From positions 1 through 51,863 of the forward strand of contig JABWCN010000031.1 of assembly GCA_013359135.1 (NCBI GenBank): a stretch of DNA of 51,863 bases, read 5' to 3'. Source of the DNA: Pseudobdellovibrionaceae bacterium (lineage in GTDB: Bacteria; Bdellovibrionota; Bdellovibrionia; Bdellovibrionales; Bdellovibrionaceae). Under the pieces are notes generated by a model. That model saw nothing but the letters and a program-made list of their open reading frames with translations, did not search any database and had not been told where the DNA came from. Each line of letters starts with the position of its first letter. Positions within the stretch are counted from its first letter, which is position 1. The position numbers and the translations under genes are program-made. Positions 25,566-35,466 of the stretch are shown piece by piece.

Positions 25566-26216
25566 ATGGAATTAAAGTCAAAATTTCTCAATCAATATGA
25601 TTCTTTGATGATACCGAGGATAGAGTTGTTTGGTACAGATCAAGAGAGCATTTTTTATCATAAAGGAGCTTATTCCTATGCTTTGTTGACGCTAGGACAA
25701 ATGAGTTTTCAGGATGAGCTATTTACTGAAGCTTATAATTATCTAAATTTTATTTATCCACAGTCTTTGGATAAATCTGGCTCTTTTATTGATACTATTA
25801 AACGCACTAATAAGAAAATATGGAAACAAACTCACTTGCTCTTAATGTATGAGCTAAGCTCTCAAAGGATGGTTGCAGGCTCTGCCTTAATTACCTCCAT
25901 GAGTCCTGAGCTTCCTTTAGCTCTGGAGTTAGAATTAGGAATAGAGATTCAAAGAAAGACACCATCGATTGAAATTGGAAGACTTTCTATCGATGTAAAG
26001 CATGCTCATCGGAGCGAGATACTAAATTTGCTATTAGTAAATATCTATGAAATTTTAGAGAATACAAAGGGTTTAGAAAATGTTTTTTTATATAGTAAAA
26101 AAACTCTTAGAAAGCTCTACGAAAGAAAAGGTTACTATTTTAAAAATTTAGAACAATATTCAAAAACACTAGGTGAAGATATTATTTCAGAACTGATTTT
26201 ATACAGAAATAAATAA
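25566..26216 (+). CDS. FeeM/autoinducer-synthase-like acyltransferase
   Basis: This 216-residue protein resembles the N-acyl amino acid synthase (FeeM) and LuxI-like branch of the GNAT fold. The core is IEIGRLSIDVKHAHRSEILNLLLVNIY (about residues 137-163): an EIGRLSI strand, then a basic turn and helix where FeeM-type enzymes bind acyl carrier. A late GYYFKNLEQYSK is like the GF region of GNATs. FeeM joins acyl-ACP chains to amino acids. Length matches that family. No strong ribosome site is seen before the ATG. It stands first on the plus strand, before the convergent AraC gene, in a cluster with a second FeeM-like protein and lipid-export genes. The substrate is unknown. Confidence 0.6.
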   Translation: MELKSKFLNQYDSLMIPRIELFGTDQESIFYHKGAYSYALLTLGQMSFQDELFTEAYNYLNFIYPQSLDKSGSFIDTIKRTNKKIWKQTHLLLMYELSSQRMVAGSALITSMSPELPLALELELGIEIQRKTPSIEIGRLSIDVKHAHRSEILNLLLVNIYEILENTKGLENVFLYSKKTLRKLYERKGYYFKNLEQYSKTLGEDIISELILYRNK

Positions 26217-26231
26217 TATGTGTTTAAGTTG

Positions 26232-27002
26232 TTATTTAAAAAGATATTTTGAAGGAGTAGTGTTAGTTACTTTTTTAAACTGTTTGTTAAATCGACTTAA
26301 ATCGTTAAAACCTGAGTTAAATGCAGCTTGCGTGATATTTAAATCTACATTTTCATTGAGTAATACATACATTGCTTCAAAAATGCGTAATTTGTTTCTG
26401 TACTCTACAGGCGTTAAGAGAAATTCTTTCTTGAAAATTTTAGTTTGTTGAGAATTAGAAATTCCAATTTTTTTTGCTATTAGATTAAGTGATTCTGGTT
26501 GGTTAAAGTAAGAGTCAATAGACTCTTTGATTTTTATAGCAATCAAATTTTTTAAGTTATTATCAAATGTATAAATCACTTTAAATTTATTCTTAAATAA
26601 CTGACTGATTTGTTCCACTTCTGTTAAGTTAATGTATTCATATTCATAAACAGAAGTGAAGTCTGGAAAAGTGTTGTTTTCTTTTCTGAAAACAAACATT
26701 TCCCACTCTAGATAGTTAGAATTTATTTCCCATTTTACAATTTGTAATGGAGGAATATACAAAAAAAATTTTCCAGATAAGAGGTATGATTGATGATTTA
26801 TAGAAATATTCAAGGATTGATTTTTTAGATCTGCTTTAATCAGTAAGCAGTAGTTACCATAAGTATCTATAAAGGTATTTGAACCTCTAGGGTAGTTATG
26901 TTTTCTGGCAATCCAGAGCAGGTTCTTTGAAATTCTCTTATATAGGTTTTCATAATTTGAAGCTTTTAAGTCAAAGGTCTTTAATTCGTAATTTGAACTC
27001 AT
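26232..27002 (-). CDS. AraC-family transcriptional regulator
   Basis: The C-terminal 100 residues are an AraC DNA-binding domain with two helix-turn-helix units: LNLIAKKIGISNSQQTKIFKKEF, and the conserved second unit ITQAAFNSGFNDLSRFNKQFKKVTNTTPSKY. The N-terminal domain is not the arabinose cupin in any obvious way and may bind a ligand. AAGGTAGG just before the ATG at 27002 decides the start; an upstream TTG at 27032 lacks a site. It diverges from the methyltransferase gene across 75 bases and converges with the acyltransferase gene. It therefore probably controls the acyltransferase, methyltransferase and export genes and itself. Confidence 0.9.
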   Translation of the reverse strand: MSSNYELKTFDLKASNYENLYKRISKNLLWIARKHNYPRGSNTFIDTYGNYCLLIKADLKNQSLNISINHQSYLLSGKFFLYIPPLQIVKWEINSNYLEWEMFVFRKENNTFPDFTSVYEYEYINLTEVEQISQLFKNKFKVIYTFDNNLKNLIAIKIKESIDSYFNQPESLNLIAKKIGISNSQQTKIFKKEFLLTPVEYRNKLRIFEAMYVLLNENVDLNITQAAFNSGFNDLSRFNKQFKKVTNTTPSKYLFK

Positions 27003-27014
27003 GCCTACCTTAGT

Positions 27015-27043
27015 CTTGGAAAAAAACGCCAAGTTCTATAAAT
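27015..27043. promoter_or_regulatory. Divergent promoter/operator region of the acyl-lipid cluster
   Basis: CTTGG (27015-27019) and CCAAG (27029-27033) form an inverted repeat in the 75-base gap between the AraC gene and the methyltransferase gene. A TATAAAT (27037-27043) beside it could be the -10 for the methyltransferase transcript. A site for the adjacent AraC regulator is plausible but unproven. Confidence 0.35.
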
Positions 27044-27077: not shown

Positions 27078-27923
27078 ATGAAACATATATTAGCAATTCT
27101 GCGTGAGTTATTTAGTAAGAAGTTGTTAGAAAGAGAAATCGAAAAAATGGTTATGACTGGAGAACAAGTTCTCAGTTATAGTGCTTATGGAGAAGCTGAC
27201 TCGGCTTTAAGAGCTGCATATCTGTTCCATGCATACTGGGCAAGTCAAAGTTTCTCTGGGTGTAAGCGTGTTATTGACTTGGGATGTGGACCTGCAAATC
27301 AGTTACTACTTTTAGCCAAACTAAATCCACAAACTCATTTCGTTGGAGTTGATTTATCAGAGGATATGCTGAAGTTGGCTCAAAAGAATAAGGAGTCATC
27401 AGGTATTAACAATGTTGAGTTCGTTGCTGATGATATCACTCAACTTAGTAAACTTGCTGATAAAAGCTTTGATGGAGTATTTAGTTCCGTAGCACTACAT
27501 CATGTTTCAACAGAAAAAGACTTATATGCTGTTTTTAATCAGGTAGAGAGAGTTTTATCAGGACCTAAGGCTTTATACATAACAGACTTTATTTTATTAA
27601 AGAACCCTAAAAGTATTGACTATCTTTTAGAGTTAAATTGGCAGCAGCCTGAACTGTTTAGACTAGAATACTTAAACTCGTTAAAAGCTGCTTTTAGCTT
27701 AGCTCATTTTAAAAAAGTCCATGAGTTGGTGCATACTGATTTTAAAATTTATCACACGAAACTGGCAAATTTTCTGATGATTATGAAGACTCCGTCTCTA
27801 ACGACTGAAGAAAACATGAATTTTAGTCAATTATTTAATGACGAAGTAAGAAAATTAAGTATAAAAAATTTACAGACTTACAGAGATTTATCACTTATGT
27901 TTCGTGTTTCTGGATTGAAATAG
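27078..27923 (+). CDS. Class I SAM-dependent methyltransferase
   Basis: This 281-residue enzyme has the Rossmann methyltransferase motifs: VIDLGCGPAN (motif I, 65-74), HFVGVDLSEDML (near 84-95), VEFVADDITQL and FDGVFSSVALHHV. The acceptor substrate cannot be read. AAAGGA precedes the ATG. It is the first gene after the divergent AraC promoter and is followed, 70 bases on, by the FeeM-PilZ gene. Methylation of the cluster product or of an amino acid precursor is an inference from position. Confidence 0.88.
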   Translation: MKHILAILRELFSKKLLEREIEKMVMTGEQVLSYSAYGEADSALRAAYLFHAYWASQSFSGCKRVIDLGCGPANQLLLLAKLNPQTHFVGVDLSEDMLKLAQKNKESSGINNVEFVADDITQLSKLADKSFDGVFSSVALHHVSTEKDLYAVFNQVERVLSGPKALYITDFILLKNPKSIDYLLELNWQQPELFRLEYLNSLKAAFSLAHFKKVHELVHTDFKIYHTKLANFLMIMKTPSLTTEENMNFSQLFNDEVRKLSIKNLQTYRDLSLMFRVSGLK

Positions 27924-27993: not shown

Positions 27994-29298
27994 ATGGCTT
28001 TTTCACCAAGAAAAATAATTTGGAAAATAGTAGATTTGATTCCGGAGAAAATAAGAAGTTCTTTGATTAGAGATTCATTAGATATTGATAAAGATCAACT
28101 CAAAGGGATTGAAATTCGGGTGGCTAAAAGCCAGAACGAAATAAATCAAGCTTTTCGTCTTTTACATGAATCTTATGTTTCTAATGGTCTTATGGACTCT
28201 AAAGAGCATGAACTTAGGATTACAAAGTATCATTGTTTGCCAACAAGCTTGATTATTGTTGCTCTTCAAGATGGTAAGGTTATTGGAACAGTGACTCATG
28301 TATTAGATAGTCAGTTGGGTTTACCATCTGATTCAGCCATAGATTTGTCCGAAATGAGAAAGAAAGGAAATCGAATTGCAGAGGTCTCTTCTTTAGCTGT
28401 TCGAAAAGGTTTTCGTCGCTCTCATGCCTTATTATTCGCTTTGACCAGATACATGTTTCATTATGCCCATAAGATTGCCGGTGTTGATTATTGGATCATT
28501 GGAGTCAGGGATAATGTTGCAAGTTATTACGAAGCCATTTTCTTCTTTAAACGCTTTAAAACAAAAAAAATTGCTCATGGTTTTGTAAAAGATTCTCCAT
28601 CGTATTTTTTGTATATGAGTCTTGGGGACTCTGAAGAAAAATTTTTAAGATGTTACAACAGTAAGCCTTTAAATAAGAATTTATATCATTTCTACTTCCA
28701 TACAGATTTTAGAGAAATAGGAAATTATGACCAGTTTAAATACAACTTACCAATAAATTATTGTTTCGATAGAGATAGCTTTACAAACTACTTCAGAGAA
28801 AAAGAGAGAATTATTGATAGCTTATCTGATAAAGAAAAGTTTGAGGTATTAAATGCTTATATTCAAATCTATCCTGAATTTTTTGAGGAAGCGGAGATGA
28901 AGCTTTTAACCCAAAGGCAATCTAGAAATGGTGTCAGATATTTATCACACTATGAAATAGAGATTTTGAGTTTAAATCAAACTCCAGGTGAACGTAAAAT
29001 ATTAGTAACTAAGTTTGAAGCAAATGGATTTGTAATGAACTTTTCAAGTTCGGGTTTACTCGTTAAATTAAATAAAAAAGTAAACCTAGAAGGTGAGTAT
29101 ATTTTAAGATTTCCAGCTAAGATACCTATTGATAAATTTTTGCGAGTTAAGGTTATTAGAAATGCAAAAGAGAATCATTATTCTTTTATGATTACCGAGG
29201 TTAATGATTCTTGGAAGCAATTTATATTAAACTTAGAACAACATATCTATACTCAAGCCCAGTCTGAAAAAGAGTTTATTATTAAAAAAGCAGCATAA
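27994..29298 (+). CDS. FeeM-like acyltransferase fused to a PilZ domain
   Basis: This 434-residue protein has two parts. Residues about 38-215 look like an N-acyl amino acid synthase/GNAT-type domain: IEIRVAKSQNEINQAFRLL, TSLIIVALQDGKVIGTVTHV, then NRIAEVSSLAVRKGFRRSHALLF and YYEAIFFFKRFK. The C-terminal part (from about 308) resembles PilZ, with RNGVR (RxxxR, 311-315) and NFSSSG (NxSxxG, 349-354), the two elements that bind cyclic di-GMP. If so, the acyltransferase is allosterically controlled by c-di-GMP. No ribosome site precedes the ATG and an inverted repeat abuts it; no other in-frame start upstream is possible before a stop. Acyl donor and acceptor are unknown. Confidence 0.78.
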   Translation: MAFSPRKIIWKIVDLIPEKIRSSLIRDSLDIDKDQLKGIEIRVAKSQNEINQAFRLLHESYVSNGLMDSKEHELRITKYHCLPTSLIIVALQDGKVIGTVTHVLDSQLGLPSDSAIDLSEMRKKGNRIAEVSSLAVRKGFRRSHALLFALTRYMFHYAHKIAGVDYWIIGVRDNVASYYEAIFFFKRFKTKKIAHGFVKDSPSYFLYMSLGDSEEKFLRCYNSKPLNKNLYHFYFHTDFREIGNYDQFKYNLPINYCFDRDSFTNYFREKERIIDSLSDKEKFEVLNAYIQIYPEFFEEAEMKLLTQRQSRNGVRYLSHYEIEILSLNQTPGERKILVTKFEANGFVMNFSSSGLLVKLNKKVNLEGEYILRFPAKIPIDKFLRVKVIRNAKENHYSFMITEVNDSWKQFILNLEQHIYTQAQSEKEFIIKKAA

Positions 29299-29347: not shown

Positions 29348-30226
29348 ATGAACTTTGATTATAAAAAAGCTTTTTCACGAAATTTAGGTTGGGTGACTCC
29401 AGAAGAACAAAAGTTAATAGCAGCTAAAACCGTAGCTATTGCTGGCCTTGGAGGTGTTGGTGGTATTCACCTAGTAACACTTCTAAGGATGGGCTTTCAA
29501 AACTTTCATTTAGCTGACTTTGATTTTTATGAGCTCCATAATTTTAATAGACAAGCAGGAGCCTTTATATCTACTGTTGGAAAGTCAAAACTTACAACTA
29601 TGGTCGAGATTGCAAAAGATATCAACCCTCAAGTAAATATCAAAGAATTTCCAGAAGGAGTTTCAAAAGAAAATTGCGCAGCCTTTTTGAAAGATGTTGA
29701 TTTATTTCTAGATGGACTAGATTTTTTTTGTTTTGATTTAAGGTCTATTCTATTTTCTTATTGCTATGATCATCATATTCCTGCGGTGACAGCAGCTCCT
29801 TTAGGAATGGGCAGTACAGTAGTTAACTTTATGCCAGGAAAAATGACTTTTGATGAGTATTTTGGATTTTCGAATGTAAAAACGGTTGAAGATAAATCTA
29901 TCCTATTTGTCATAGGCTTGTCTCCATTTAGAATTCAAAATGAGTATTTAGTCTACCCAGAAATAGTTGATTTTGAAAAAAAGCAGCTCCCATCAACTCC
30001 AATAGCTTGTCAAATGGCATCAGCTTTAGCTGCTACGGAAATCCTTAAGATATTGCTGAAAAGAGGCAAGGTAATTTGTGCTCCCTATTCTATGCAGGTT
30101 GATCCATATGTTCAAAAAGTTAAAATTTCTTGGATACCATTTGGATTTAAAAATCCCATACAACAACTAAGAGTTTTAATTGGTAGGTGGATTTTTAAAA
30201 ATAAAATTTCAAAGGTAAAAGCATAA
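29348..30226 (+). CDS. ThiF/MoeB/E1-like adenylating enzyme
   Basis: This 292-residue protein is an E1-like adenylyltransferase with a nucleotide-binding AIAGLGGVGG (30-39), an aspartate-rich LADFDFYELHNFNRQAG (55-71, with the N-R-Q triad) and DLFLDGLDFF. Family members activate a carboxylate with ATP, typically the C-terminus of a ubiquitin-like protein or a peptide. The two CxxC zinc pairs of MoeB/ThiF are missing, and no ThiS/MoaD-like gene is adjacent, so a small-molecule or peptide substrate is possible, as in MccB-type enzymes. A cysteine in STPIACQMASALAATEIL is the best candidate for thioester chemistry. AAAGGTAAG precedes the ATG. It ends one base before the ATPase gene. Confidence 0.85.
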   Translation: MNFDYKKAFSRNLGWVTPEEQKLIAAKTVAIAGLGGVGGIHLVTLLRMGFQNFHLADFDFYELHNFNRQAGAFISTVGKSKLTTMVEIAKDINPQVNIKEFPEGVSKENCAAFLKDVDLFLDGLDFFCFDLRSILFSYCYDHHIPAVTAAPLGMGSTVVNFMPGKMTFDEYFGFSNVKTVEDKSILFVIGLSPFRIQNEYLVYPEIVDFEKKQLPSTPIACQMASALAATEILKILLKRGKVICAPYSMQVDPYVQKVKISWIPFGFKNPIQQLRVLIGRWIFKNKISKVKA

Positions 30227-30227
30227 T

Positions 30228-30902
30228 ATGGAACAGCTAATAACTATACTAAAGTTAAAAAAAAAATATCCATTGGGTGATACTGTCATAGAAGCTTTAA
30301 AGGGTATTGATCTTAAAATATACAAAGGTGATTTCACAGCAATAGTAGGTGCTTCCGGTTCAGGCAAGAGTACTCTTTTGAATTTGATAGGAACAATAGA
30401 CGACCCTGATGATGGTGAAGTTTATTTTAAAGATATTAATATATTTAAATTGAATGAAAATGAAAAAGCAAAATTTAGAAATGAAAAAATAGGATTTATT
30501 TTTCAATCATTTAATTTAATTCCAGTTTTGAATGTACTTGAAAATGTAAAAATTCCTTTGTTGTTAAATAAGAAATTATCAGAGCAACAAAGGACAGATA
30601 AGGCGATAGAGAGCTTGGAAGAGGTTGGTTTAAAAGATTTTGTATATTCAACTCCAAACAAGCTTTCTGGTGGGCAAAGGCAAAGAGTAGCTATTGCTAG
30701 AGCTCTTGTAAACAATCCTGAGTTTATAATAGCCGATGAACCAACAGCTAACTTAGACTCAAAAACGACTATGAATGTAATTGATTTAATGTTGAAGCTT
30801 AATAAAGAAAAGGGTGTTACCTTTCTTTTTTCAACACATGATGAAAAATTAATGGATAGAGTTTCTAAAATAATCCATATAAAGGATGGACTTATATTGT
30901 GA
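30228..30902 (+). CDS. LolD/MacB-type ABC transporter ATPase
   Basis: This 224-residue ATPase carries Walker A GASGSGKST (41-49), a Q-loop in FIFQSFNLIP, the ABC signature LSGGQRQRVAIARAL (near 146), Walker B FIIADEP and a switch histidine in STHDEKL. It belongs to the LolD/MacB/FtsE branch, which pairs with FtsX-like permeases that work on periplasmic or membrane-embedded substrates rather than importing solutes. It begins one base after the ThiF-like stop and overlaps the next gene (GTGA), giving strong operon linkage. Confidence 0.95.
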   Translation: MEQLITILKLKKKYPLGDTVIEALKGIDLKIYKGDFTAIVGASGSGKSTLLNLIGTIDDPDDGEVYFKDINIFKLNENEKAKFRNEKIGFIFQSFNLIPVLNVLENVKIPLLLNKKLSEQQRTDKAIESLEEVGLKDFVYSTPNKLSGGQRQRVAIARALVNNPEFIIADEPTANLDSKTTMNVIDLMLKLNKEKGVTFLFSTHDEKLMDRVSKIIHIKDGLIL

Positions 30903-32164
30903 TTTTCTTAAAGTGGGCTTTCTTAAACCTAAAAAGAAATAAGAGATTAACTTTGGCAACAGGGTTTGCTTTAGTTTTTGGATTTACAGGATTGTTACTT
31001 CTTTCAGGTTATATAAAAGTAGTTGATAGGTTTGTTAGCACTCAGACCATATATCTAAACATGGTTGGACATATAGGGATATTAAAATCAGGATCTGTGG
31101 AAGATGCTTATCGAAATCCCGAAAAGTATTTATTGAGTTCAGAAGAACAAAAAGAAATTGAACAGGTATTAGAGATACCTTTTTTAAAAGAAAATATAGA
31201 AAAAGTTTCTAAAAAGCTTACCGCATTTGCGTTGTTATCAGCTGCTGAGAAGAATCTTCCAATATATATTGAAGCTTATTCTGAAGGGATGACTGCCTAT
31301 ATCGAAAATCATCCTCAGTTAGTAAAGTGGTTGCCAACTTTACTGTCTAAAATAAAATCTTCGGATGGCGTTTCATTAACCAAAGAATTGTATTCGATGT
31401 TAGGTCATGACGTGAATGCACAACCTATTGATGTTCAAGTTATGACCAAAACTTTGGATGGATATCTGAATGGTGTTAGTGATAAACTTACTGGTGTTCA
31501 TACAACGGGATTAGCTTTTGCTGAAGACGTGAGTGCAAAAATGTCATTGCCTAAGTTACAAGAGTTATTAGCGACAGATAAAATAGGGACATTCTCAATT
31601 TTTCTTAAAGATGAAACGAAAATTGAGGAAGTTATAAAACAATTAAAGTTATCCTTAAAAGGAAAAGGCTTTGAGATATACTCATACAACTCCGATGAAA
31701 TTGGAGCTTATTATACAGGGACAATGTCATTCATTAATAGTATTGGTTTTTTCTTTTACTCTCTAATTGCTTTAGTTTCTATTTTTTCTATTGTTAATAC
31801 TTTGACTATGGGGATTAATGAAAGAACTAAAGAAATTGGTACTCTTAGAAGTATGGGATTTAATAACTATCAAATTTCCAATTTGTTTTCACTTGAGGTA
31901 ATCATGTTAACGTTTTTTGCTATTATTATTTCTTCAATTCTATATTATGTACTTTCGAGTTTTATCAATTCTTTGAAGATTCCTTTTGAGCCCGCTGGTA
32001 GCTCAGGATATGTTTACTTTACTATATATATCAGTAATAGCATAATGCTTGCTCATGCCTGTATTATATTATTTATTAGTTATCTAACATCTTTTATTGC
32101 CTGCAAGAAAAAGCTTAACTTTAATATTGCAGAGTTACTTAATGAACAGGGAGTATACAAATGA
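30899..32164 (+). CDS. FtsX/LolC-like ABC permease, first subunit
   Basis: This 421-residue permease has the MacB/LolCE layout: one N-terminal membrane helix (LTLATGFALVFGFTGLLLL), a periplasmic domain of about 240 residues, and three C-terminal helices with the cytoplasmic segment GINERTKEIGTLRSMGFNNYQIS that couples to the ATPase. The GTG start overlaps the ATPase stop by four bases. LolC/LolE proteins lift lipoproteins out of the inner membrane, and MacB works on peptides or toxins; the cargo here is unknown. A second, diverged permease follows two genes later, so the complex is probably a heterodimer as in LolCDE. Confidence 0.92.
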   Translation: MIFLKWAFLNLKRNKRLTLATGFALVFGFTGLLLLSGYIKVVDRFVSTQTIYLNMVGHIGILKSGSVEDAYRNPEKYLLSSEEQKEIEQVLEIPFLKENIEKVSKKLTAFALLSAAEKNLPIYIEAYSEGMTAYIENHPQLVKWLPTLLSKIKSSDGVSLTKELYSMLGHDVNAQPIDVQVMTKTLDGYLNGVSDKLTGVHTTGLAFAEDVSAKMSLPKLQELLATDKIGTFSIFLKDETKIEEVIKQLKLSLKGKGFEIYSYNSDEIGAYYTGTMSFINSIGFFFYSLIALVSIFSIVNTLTMGINERTKEIGTLRSMGFNNYQISNLFSLEVIMLTFFAIIISSILYYVLSSFINSLKIPFEPAGSSGYVYFTIYISNSIMLAHACIILFISYLTSFIACKKKLNFNIAELLNEQGVYK

Positions 32165-32880
32165 AGATATTATTATTCCTCTTCTTAGCACTTCAGGTCA
32201 AAGCACAAAACTTACAAGAACTATTAAAGGTTTCAGATCGTGCCAGGGGGGGAGTTGCGCAGGGTGTATCTTGGAATGTAAAAATTAAATCTTGGGAAAA
32301 TGAATTGCAAACAGAAAGAAACTTCCAGGTGAAAGCAAAAGATGTCAATGCTTATGTTGAAACATCTGATATTGGTCGATTTAAAGGAGAGATTTATTTG
32401 TTTAATGATCGTACTATCTGGTTTTTTAAACCGTCGTTAAAAAAACCAGTTTCTATTTCTGCAAGAGAAAGACTCTCTGGGCAGGCGGCTAATGGCGATA
32501 TTGCTAGTACTAATTATGCTAGAGACTATATTCCTAAGCTGTTGAAAAAAGAAAGTATTAATGGTCAAAATACTTTCGTATTACTATTAAAAGCTAAAAA
32601 TAAAACTATGACTTATGATCAAATAAAATACTGGATATCAGAGAAAGAAAAGCTAGGTATTAAGGCCGAGTTTCTTACTTTAAGTGGAAAAGTATTTAAA
32701 ACTGCTATTTTTAAATATTCTAATTCAATCAAATTTAATGGTAAACAAATCCCATTTGTTTCAGAGATGATTATTCAAGATGCAATTCAAGACAGCAATA
32801 AAAGCATTCTGTACTATGATAAACCTGTTGTTGAAAAAATTTCAGATAACATTTTCAATATAAATAATATTAGCCGATGA
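32161..32880 (+). CDS. LolA-like outer-membrane lipoprotein-sorting protein
   Basis: This 239-residue periplasmic protein has a short signal peptide (ILLFLFLALQVKA). Its domain resembles LolA/LolB-type lipid carriers of the outer-membrane lipoprotein-sorting family: SDIGRFKGEIYLFNDRTIWFFKPSLKKPVSIS, a RLSGQAANGDIASTNYARDY segment, then the paired strands QNTFVLLLKAKN and IKYWISEKEKLGIKAEFLTL. Members shield acyl chains in a half-barrel. The ATG overlaps the upstream permease stop (ATGA), and its own stop overlaps the next permease, so it is sandwiched between two FtsX-like subunits. It most likely carries the cluster lipid from the ABC complex to the outer membrane. Confidence 0.85.
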   Translation: MKILLFLFLALQVKAQNLQELLKVSDRARGGVAQGVSWNVKIKSWENELQTERNFQVKAKDVNAYVETSDIGRFKGEIYLFNDRTIWFFKPSLKKPVSISARERLSGQAANGDIASTNYARDYIPKLLKKESINGQNTFVLLLKAKNKTMTYDQIKYWISEKEKLGIKAEFLTLSGKVFKTAIFKYSNSIKFNGKQIPFVSEMIIQDAIQDSNKSILYYDKPVVEKISDNIFNINNISR

Positions 32881-34199
32881 ATTTACTTATAAAAACTGCT
32901 TTTAAAAATATTATTAATTACTCAAAGCAAAGCAAGTCTACTTTGTTAAGTATTGCTGTAGCTTTTATGTCAATTGTTCTATTTCAAGGATATATAAAAG
33001 ATGTATTTCTAGTTATGAGTGATGAATATTCTAAAAGATCTATGTTTGGTGATTTTATTATTGAAAATAAAGAATCTTATTCTCCTGCTGCTAAAAAAGA
33101 ACCTTGGAAATATTATATCACTCAAGAACAACAATTGTTAGTTAAAAAACTCTTGATAGATAAATTAGGAAATGAATTACCTATTTGTTCTGTACTGAGA
33201 ATCTCAGGAATGATTCAGAAAAAAAATCAGCAATTTTTATTTATAGGCTCAGGTTTTGATCAGGATGGATGTGTTAAACTCAGGGGTTCTGAATGGAAAG
33301 TTAATGCCATTTTTGGAAAATCACTTCATGAGGTAAAAATTGAAGAGAGTGTTTTACTTGGGCAAACACTAGCTAAAAATTTTGATTGTGAGAAAAAAGA
33401 TAAGTCTGCAAAAAATTTATACAGAAGAAGTGGTTACGGTAAATACAATAGAGAAATTGAATGTCAAAATGGACAAAATTTTAATCTTTCTGTTTTAACT
33501 ATTAATGGCCAAATTAATTCCGATGAGGTTGAGTTAGTTGGGTTATTTGATGGTGGTTTTGTTGATATTGATGCAAGGATTTTACAAGTGAGCCTAGAAA
33601 AAGCGCAAAAGTTATATGATACCAATGGTGTAAGTTATATGACTTTTGCTAGTGAGGATCTGAAAAATGATCCTGCTAAAATAGCTTTTTTCAATTCACA
33701 GCTGCCAAGTGGGCTGCAGATGACTCTATGGAAGGAGCATCCTGTTATTGGTGATTTTTATCGGCGGACAATAGGTTTAATGAATCTATTAAAAAATTTT
33801 GTTGCTATTATTATTTTTATAGTCGTTTCTCTTAGTGTCACAAATTCTTTATTGAAAAACATAAAAGAGCGTTCAAAAGAGATTGGAACATTTCGTAGTC
33901 TAGGTTTTAATAAACAATCTATTCGAAATATTTTTTACTTTGAAGTTGTCTTTTTAGCATTATTTGGTTGCTTCATTGGAGCTGCTGTTTCCTTGGGATT
34001 GACTTTGTTAATTAATAGTTTAAACATAACTTATAAAGCTGGTCAGTTTGTTGAAGCAACTCCAATGCTAGTTGCTGTTGATTTTCAAAACTATTTTTTG
34101 GTAACCCTTGGAATAGTATTATTGTCTGTTATTGGTTGTAATGTAGTTTTAAACAATACGCTCAAAAAAACTGCAGCTGAAAATTTGAATCATGCTTAA
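32877..34199 (+). CDS. FtsX/LolE-like ABC permease, second subunit
   Basis: This 440-residue permease has one N-terminal membrane helix (SIAVAFMSIVLFQGYI), a periplasmic domain of about 270 residues with ISGMIQKKNQQFLFIGSG and LLGQTLAKNF segments, and three C-terminal helices around NIKERSKEIGTFRSLGFNKQSIRN. The periplasmic part holds cysteines near FDCEKK and IECQNG that the first permease lacks. Start and preceding stop share ATGA. With the ATPase and first permease it should form an asymmetric LolCDE-like complex. No second ATPase is present, which supports a heterodimeric permease sharing one ATPase type. Confidence 0.92.
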   Translation: MNLLIKTAFKNIINYSKQSKSTLLSIAVAFMSIVLFQGYIKDVFLVMSDEYSKRSMFGDFIIENKESYSPAAKKEPWKYYITQEQQLLVKKLLIDKLGNELPICSVLRISGMIQKKNQQFLFIGSGFDQDGCVKLRGSEWKVNAIFGKSLHEVKIEESVLLGQTLAKNFDCEKKDKSAKNLYRRSGYGKYNREIECQNGQNFNLSVLTINGQINSDEVELVGLFDGGFVDIDARILQVSLEKAQKLYDTNGVSYMTFASEDLKNDPAKIAFFNSQLPSGLQMTLWKEHPVIGDFYRRTIGLMNLLKNFVAIIIFIVVSLSVTNSLLKNIKERSKEIGTFRSLGFNKQSIRNIFYFEVVFLALFGCFIGAAVSLGLTLLINSLNITYKAGQFVEATPMLVAVDFQNYFLVTLGIVLLSVIGCNVVLNNTLKKTAAENLNHA

Positions 34200-35466
34200 A
34201 TTAAAAAAAAATATATTTTTTCTTTTTATACAAATTTTATCATTAAAGTTGAATGGCGCCACTTATAACTTTAAAAGTGGTCTTGAATGGATTAATGGAG
34301 TTCAAGTTAGAGAGGTTGCAGATTCAGATTTGAATCCAGATAATCGAATATTTAAAACTCCTCGAGGTCTGGCAAAAACAGATATTCGAGGAGACTTTAG
34401 ACTAAAATATTTTTCAGGTGTAAATTTTGTTTTTAGACCCAGATTTCAAGGAACAAGTTTCGATATTTATTATCCTAATTCTCAAGAATCTCTGAATATG
34501 AATGAGGGAAACTGGGATATAAACGAGTTATTTGGAGAATATTTTGCTACAGATGTTGTAAGTTTTAATTTTGGATTACAAAATTATCAGTGGGGACCAG
34601 CGGAGGTTATGAGTCCATCTAATTCACTATTCCATTTTGAAAATGATCAGAAATCCATTTTCTACCGTGCAAAAGGGAAAGTTTTATTAAGAACTAATTT
34701 AAGTTTTTTAAAAACTCACAGTTTGATTTTTATTAATGAACCTATTAGTAACAACGAACCTGGTTGGATGGCTGCACAAAAATTTGAAAGTAAATCAATT
34801 ATAAAATGGGAAAAAAGAAGTTTGAAAGACTCGAATACCTACTTTGGAATAACTTTAGGTAATGAGGAGCAAAATAAAAAGTTTGTTGGGACTTATTTTA
34901 ACTATTTTTTCCAAGAGAAATACTCTATTTATGCAGATATTAAGTTTAAAAATGGTTCTGATGCGTATTATCCAAAACAGCTTTTTTCAGATCAATATCT
35001 TTTAATGCAGGACTCCGTTAAACAACAAAAGCAACAGACATTAGCTGTTTTAGGTTTCAGAGTTGAAGCTAGGGGTGATTTTAGAATAGAGTGGGTCTAC
35101 AACAGTGCTGGTTATGATGATCAAGAGGTTAGCTATCTTGGAAGGTCCTTAGCTATGAATCAGCTTTTCTATTATAAGAACTTAGAGTTAGCTTTGAAAC
35201 CAGGTCTTGAGCTTTATACTCAAAACTATTTGTATTTGAGCTATAGATTGCCAGACTTGGGAAAGAAAAAGCTTTCGACACTTTTTTTTAGGTATATCAC
35301 AAGTATAAATGACAAATCAGGTACGCTTGAAATGCTTTGGGACTCTGCGCTAAATGATTTTTGGAATTACTATATAGAAATCACAAGCTCTCATGGTGAA
35401 AATAATACTGAGTTTAGATTGTTTGAAAAGGGATCTCTGTTCCTAGGGGTTAAGTTTGCCATTTGA
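34192..35466 (+). CDS. Putative outer-membrane beta-barrel of the export operon
   Basis: This 424-residue protein has an N-terminal signal region (IFFLFIQILSLKLNG) followed by barrel-type alternation throughout. Examples are FRLKYFSGVNFVFRPRFQG, VVSFNFGLQNYQWGPAEVMSPSN, TYFGITLGN and NYYIEITSSHGENNTEFRLF, and it ends LFLGVKFAI. The periodic YQWGP segment resembles porin-like proteins found beside LolA-like carriers, but I cannot name the family. It overlaps the second permease gene by eight bases and is the last gene of the run, completing an inner membrane-periplasm-outer membrane set. It could receive or flip the cargo at the outer membrane. Confidence 0.72.
   Translation: MLKLKKNIFFLFIQILSLKLNGATYNFKSGLEWINGVQVREVADSDLNPDNRIFKTPRGLAKTDIRGDFRLKYFSGVNFVFRPRFQGTSFDIYYPNSQESLNMNEGNWDINELFGEYFATDVVSFNFGLQNYQWGPAEVMSPSNSLFHFENDQKSIFYRAKGKVLLRTNLSFLKTHSLIFINEPISNNEPGWMAAQKFESKSIIKWEKRSLKDSNTYFGITLGNEEQNKKFVGTYFNYFFQEKYSIYADIKFKNGSDAYYPKQLFSDQYLLMQDSVKQQKQQTLAVLGFRVEARGDFRIEWVYNSAGYDDQEVSYLGRSLAMNQLFYYKNLELALKPGLELYTQNYLYLSYRLPDLGKKKLSTLFFRYITSINDKSGTLEMLWDSALNDFWNYYIEITSSHGENNTEFRLFEKGSLFLGVKFAI

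Follow-up and report, generated by a model that had tools for sequence, protein, structure and literature searches.

The closest described relatives of the locus analysed here are Nas343 and Nas354, two N-acyltyrosine synthases from metagenomic clones in which an N-terminal FeeM-like synthase, a linker of about 80 residues with no known fold and a C-terminal PilZ domain share one chain, a layout for which control by c-di-GMP was proposed (Thies et al., 2016; PMC4897644). Nas354 produced N-acyltyrosine in E. coli, and changing the catalytic Glu led to loss of the phenotype in the same study (PMC4897644). NasP is likewise a synthase under second-messenger control, activated by cAMP and not by c-di-GMP (Clardy and Brady, 2007, summarised in PMC4897644). 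A link between N-acyl amino acid synthases and PEP-CTERM has also been published (Craig et al., 2011, cited in both PMC4897644 and PMC7293339). Two solved proteins mark the separate halves of this layout: FeeM (2g0b) has the synthase fold and the catalytic Glu region in a chain of 198 residues without a PilZ domain, and the cellulose synthase BcsA joins PilZ and a synthase in one chain but is a glycosyltransferase.

A synthase, a ThiF-like enzyme and a nitroreductase-type oxidase together produce oxazolones in M. tuberculosis and Pseudoalteromonas (PMC10404671). In the TyzA-TyzB-TyzC, TrzA-TrzS (M. tuberculosis) and OxzA-OxzB (Pseudoalteromonas rubra) systems the synthase lies next to a ThiF-like cyclase, with TyzB, TrzS and OxzB cyclising N-acyl amino acids to oxazolones (PMC10404671, PMC12856293), whose role is described as a major unresolved question (PMC12856293). 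The same trio is linked to N-acyl dehydrotyrosines in the stieleriacine, kyonggic acid and thalassotalic acid clusters, which combine NasY, ThiF and a nitroreductase, with a methyltransferase in Stieleria (PMC12479983). PilZ has no occurrence in the two oxazolone papers and is unmentioned in PMC12479983.

The window, a stretch of 51,863 nucleotides from a Pseudobdellovibrionaceae bacterium, encodes a protein with the same order of synthase domain, linker and PilZ domain as Nas343 and Nas354, as identified by Pfam, a structural model and a fold search; its reading frame begins with ATG and is uninterrupted (Table 1). The domain lengths are also similar and the catalytic Glu is shared, a likeness judged from the published description of the two proteins. 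In contrast to those slaughterhouse-biofilm clones, which are thought to lie outside a biosynthetic operon, the window gene adjoins a ThiF gene and an export-like module. The architecture has therefore been known since 2016, and the window protein is a further member; what we add is the spread of the fusion, the conservation of its signal-binding residues and its adjacency to a lipid-modifying pathway gene. The first-pass annotation had called the coupling of c-di-GMP signalling to small-molecule synthesis unusual: the two-domain fusion is real, but rarity does not hold, since Nas343 and Nas354 were reported in 2016 and the family is widespread. Within the open-licence literature, we found no further paper naming Nas354, nothing further on PilZ with an acyltransferase or with an acyl-homoserine lactone synthase, and no combination of this fusion with a ThiF cyclase neighbour.

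Table 1. Features of the synthase locus, in coordinates of the window (aa, residues of the 434-residue protein)
Feature	Residues	Coordinates	Strand	Basis
AraC-family regulator, divergent from methyltransferase		26232..27032	-	HTH_18 1.6e-18
SAM methyltransferase, possible tailoring enzyme, upstream		27078..27923	+	Pfam Methyltransf_31 2e-24
N-acyl amino acid synthase with C-terminal PilZ (NAS-PilZ)	434 aa	27994..29298	+	ORF, Pfam, model
FeeM-type GNAT domain	~aa 39-209	28108..28620	+	Pfam FeeM, 2g0b match, E130 invariant
Linker, helical, conserved	~aa 210-304	28621..28905	+	Conserved columns 221, 229, 246, 267, 289; model helices
PilZ domain, six-stranded barrel and long C-terminal helix	~aa 305-433	28906..29292	+	Profiles, fold model
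RxxxR motif, RNGVR	aa 311-315	28924..28938	+	R315 in 119/119, R311 in 82% of 119 homologues
[D/N]xSxxG motif, NFSSSG	aa 349-354	29038..29055	+	S351 98%, G354 99%; strand 2-3 turn
ThiF/E1-like adenylyltransferase, PRK08223 type, candidate oxazolone cyclase		29348..30226	+	NF006077, class-wide linkage
ABC transporter ATPase, LolD-like by sequence		30228..30902	+	ORF/translation; homologues beside synthases
LolC/E-type permease		30899..32164	+	NCBIfam lolCE 2.6e-13, under family cut-off
LolA-like outer-membrane lipoprotein-sorting protein		32161..32880	+	PF17131 8.5e-30
Second permease		32877..34199	+	ORF; conserved neighbour in L051, L070, L083
424-aa protein without Pfam match		34192..35466	+	Conserved neighbour in L051, L070, L083

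Synthase and PilZ domains in one chain

The N-terminal part of the protein matched the Pfam FeeM family (PF21926) at 125.8 bits against a cut-off of 27 (E=1.7e-36, residues 52-196), and the solved structure closest to its model was FeeM itself (2g0b, Z 20.7, rmsd 2.5 over 180 residues), with acyl-homoserine lactone synthases second at Z about 16. E130 aligned with the Glu of the FeeM AEV segment, the catalytic-Glu region, and was identical in all 119 homologues; a FeeM match was present in each of the 43 full-length homologues from the class. The encoded enzyme very probably couples an amino acid with a fatty acid. In the whole-protein model (mean pLDDT 83.6) the GNAT domain was followed by the helical linker and then by a six-stranded barrel at about residues 320-433 with a long final helix. 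The linker of one Burkholderiales homologue (L154) aligned up to position 280 with PRK14852, an NCBIfam model that spans synthase and ThiF as one chain and whose ThiF part starts near 313; because of this alignment, the linker probably belongs to the synthase and is not a transmitter specific to PilZ.

The PilZ motifs, RNGVR and NFSSSG, lie exactly where the first-pass annotation had placed them, with the correct spacing and place in the fold for PilZ. Since a motif pair with PilZ spacing also arises in 1.07% of shuffles of the 434-residue protein, we treated the match alone as weak evidence, a lead. Single-sequence searches miss the domain, as a phmmer search of the PDB with just this protein returned FeeM at no better than E=0.08 and no PilZ. 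A fold search with the whole-protein model listed acyltransferases alone, and the PilZ part was therefore folded and searched by itself. This C-terminal model had a pLDDT of about 90 or more across most of the barrel, with the RxxxR segment modelled at low confidence, and its fold search placed solved PilZ domains in roughly the top 30 rows, with unrelated folds below; it matched c-di-GMP-bound PilZ structures at Z 9-11.6, and its matches also included MapZ with CheR1 and YcgR.

A PilZ profile search and a structure prediction had been proposed as checks on the annotation. Pfam PilZ scored 15.5 bits on the whole protein and 17.7 bits on the C-terminal part alone, below the cut-off of 22.5, but 23 of the 43 full-length class homologues matched PilZ at E<1e-3 (best 1.5e-12), so that the shortfall reflects limited sensitivity and does not bear on what defines the fold. 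A profile of the class family found the BcsA PilZ domain (5.8e-4) and VCA0042 (3.6e-3) in the PDB, and a mixed Bdellovibrionota-Burkholderiales C-terminal profile was weaker, reaching MrkH/YcgR at E=0.17-0.27. In the reciprocal direction, a C-terminal profile from which the query had been left out recovered the query protein (3.6e-15) and, from the 16 PilZ loci in its own genome, 13 (12 distinct proteins, as two loci overlap), the top two at 1e-13 and 7e-11. The structure prediction gave the six-stranded PilZ barrel with its helix, and solved PilZ structures were the best matches. Across the 119 homologues, R315, G354 and S351 ranked highest in conservation within the C-terminal domain, above W407, and were kept in 98-100% of sequences; R311 ranked seventh and was not universal. 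With homologue profile, reciprocal test, fold search and motif conservation in agreement, the C-terminal region is, by sequence and model, a real PilZ domain. The reading of a FeeM-like acyltransferase fused to PilZ is thus borne out, and computation establishes both folds and shows that the catalytic Glu and the c-di-GMP motif are conserved.

Distribution of the fusion

NAS-PilZ homologues were present in 39 of the 144 genomes sampled from the Bdellovibrionia lineage (the class), often in several copies, and R315, S351 and G354 were kept in all 43 full-length members. A scan of genome contigs with the single protein found no relatives; the wider scan, with a six-member alignment as its query, gave 80 loci, for the most part from Burkholderiales. 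The NAS-PilZ fusion is a common one among both Bdellovibrionota and Burkholderiales. Most sequences of the wider set (n=76, including some Bdellovibrionota loci) have E instead of D or N at position 349, a replacement that makes ligand binding less certain there. The fusion of Nas343 and Nas354 is accordingly a widespread family and no peculiarity of the two metagenomic clones, and the conservation of a c-di-GMP domain on the synthase in two groups so distant from each other suggests that production of these lipids is under the signal that controls attachment and biofilm.

About 30 of the 80 loci had homologues of the XrtA/PEP-CTERM proteins PrsK, PrsR and PrsT as neighbours, which agrees with the published PEP-CTERM link. 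Burkholderiales NAS-PilZ genes lie within XrtA/PEP-CTERM exopolysaccharide clusters at L101, L123, L129, L144 and similar loci, most with the E349-type motif. One genome (G101) held nine NAS-PilZ matches, an unusual expansion, and in another (G139) the homologue at L027:1477-2781 is broken by an in-frame TAA, with a ThiF gene nearby.

The ThiF gene and other neighbours

The ThiF gene lies 49 bp 3' of the synthase gene. Its product scored 373.7 bits against NF006077 (cut-off 266) and matched the ThiF part of both PRK14852 and PRK14851, the latter an NCBIfam model that spans ThiF and oxidase. At a threshold of E<1e-40, ThiF genes of this type were present in 28 of the 144 class genomes, and 27 of these 28 also held a synthase (Fisher p=8e-19, a guide only, as the genomes are related). 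Within the class, 23 of 54 ThiF copies fell within 5 kb of a synthase, compared to 0.7 expected for evenly placed genes in 3.3 Mb genomes; the linkage of the two genes is thus established by computation. The nearest relative, G064, has an orthologous locus without ThiF, and a ThiF 62% identical to that of the window adjoins its second NAS-PilZ gene. The ORF after that ThiF gene was considered as an oxidase and rejected, being a malate dehydrogenase.

No nitroreductase-type flavin oxidase lies beside the window synthase, unlike in the stieleriacine-type clusters, and such oxidases are present at some other synthase loci. The sole TyzC/Acg-type flavin oxidase homologue found in the same genome is encoded away from the synthase (L174:5959-7116, contig C41), so that the genome shares a same-superfamily oxidase with the Tyz, Trz and Oxz systems but differs from them in carrying it on another contig. 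The regulator beside this oxidase was 21% identical (E=5e-4) to the DUF4423 regulator of six synthase loci.

Downstream of ThiF, genes for an ABC ATPase, a permease, a LolA-like protein, a second permease and the 424-residue protein follow in a tightly packed row on the forward strand (30228-35466). A LolA-like gene was near a synthase in 8 of 45 cases in the class compared to 0.46 expected; 15 genomes that lack a synthase carry the module too, which leaves its link to an acyl amino acid lipid weak. That it acts here as an exporter is a guess, and the 424-residue product is possibly, again as a guess, an outer-membrane barrel. Upstream, homologues of the methyltransferase were not found beside other synthases, and AraC homologues occurred at six synthase loci. 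Just upstream of the AraC gene, a 216-residue protein (25566-26216, forward strand) contains an EIGRLSI stretch resembling the GNAT/autoinducer-synthase type and had no match in Pfam, NCBIfam or PDB sequences. Promoter- and terminator-like matches in the window were near shuffle level.

Proposed mechanism and competing explanations

We infer the reaction and pathway from characterised homologues, and consider it likely that the PilZ domain binds c-di-GMP and tunes the synthase, whose N-acyl amino acid product would then be processed by the ThiF enzyme. The GNAT domain would take an acyl chain from either acyl-ACP or acyl-CoA and attach it to an amino acid at the amine, with an aromatic amino acid as the best-guess substrate, and c-di-GMP bound through R311, R315, N349, S351 and G354 would alter synthase activity. 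The product may pass to the adjoining ThiF-like enzyme, which would activate its carboxylate and cyclise it towards an acyl-oxazolone or N-acyl dehydro-amino acid, in cooperation with the TyzC-like flavin oxidase on the other contig, and the downstream ABC/LolA-like genes may carry the lipid to the outer membrane. This bacterium probably makes c-di-GMP, as its genome encodes five GGDEF domains. Since Nas354 is active in ordinary E. coli cultures, the PilZ switch may fall short of strict on/off control, although E. coli does make some c-di-GMP. We hold only tentatively the larger picture of a pathway to oxazolones or N-acyl dehydro-amino acids that is gated by c-di-GMP, in which a biofilm or lifestyle signal would set the flow of acyl amino acids into the ThiF route with Lol-like export. 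Such gating would operate in the Bdellovibrio lineage and also in Burkholderiales, there within PEP-CTERM exopolysaccharide clusters that mostly lack ThiF.

The main competitor to direct tuning of the synthase is that PilZ does bind c-di-GMP but steers location or partner binding (to the membrane, the ThiF enzyme or ACP) and not catalysis. Many PilZ domains work through protein contacts, the structural matches to this one include MapZ with CheR1 and YcgR, and between the synthase and PilZ domains lies a helical linker that is conserved; however, the PilZ domain of BcsA, the closest match in both sequence and structure, gates the catalytic domain of its own chain, and we regard steering as unlikely. 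A PilZ domain surviving as a degenerate structural remnant that has lost c-di-GMP binding would fit the sub-threshold Pfam score and the variation of relatives at positions 311 and 349, but appears improbable given that the window protein keeps every motif residue and that R315, G354 and S351 are the domain's three most conserved columns.

The acyltransferase might instead make another acyl amide, such as an ornithine-lipid type, an acyl-homoserine lactone or an acylated protein, beside an unrelated ThiF gene. Acyl-homoserine lactone synthases are indeed next after FeeM in structural similarity, but FeeM is clearly ahead in both structure and Pfam score, the ThiF linkage recurs across the class and PRK14852 unites synthase and ThiF, all of which make this very improbable. 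That the motifs arose by chance in a C-terminal region that is not PilZ, as the shuffle frequency and the Pfam score below cut-off might suggest, is hardly credible, because the homologue profile, the reciprocal profile and the fold search all give PilZ.
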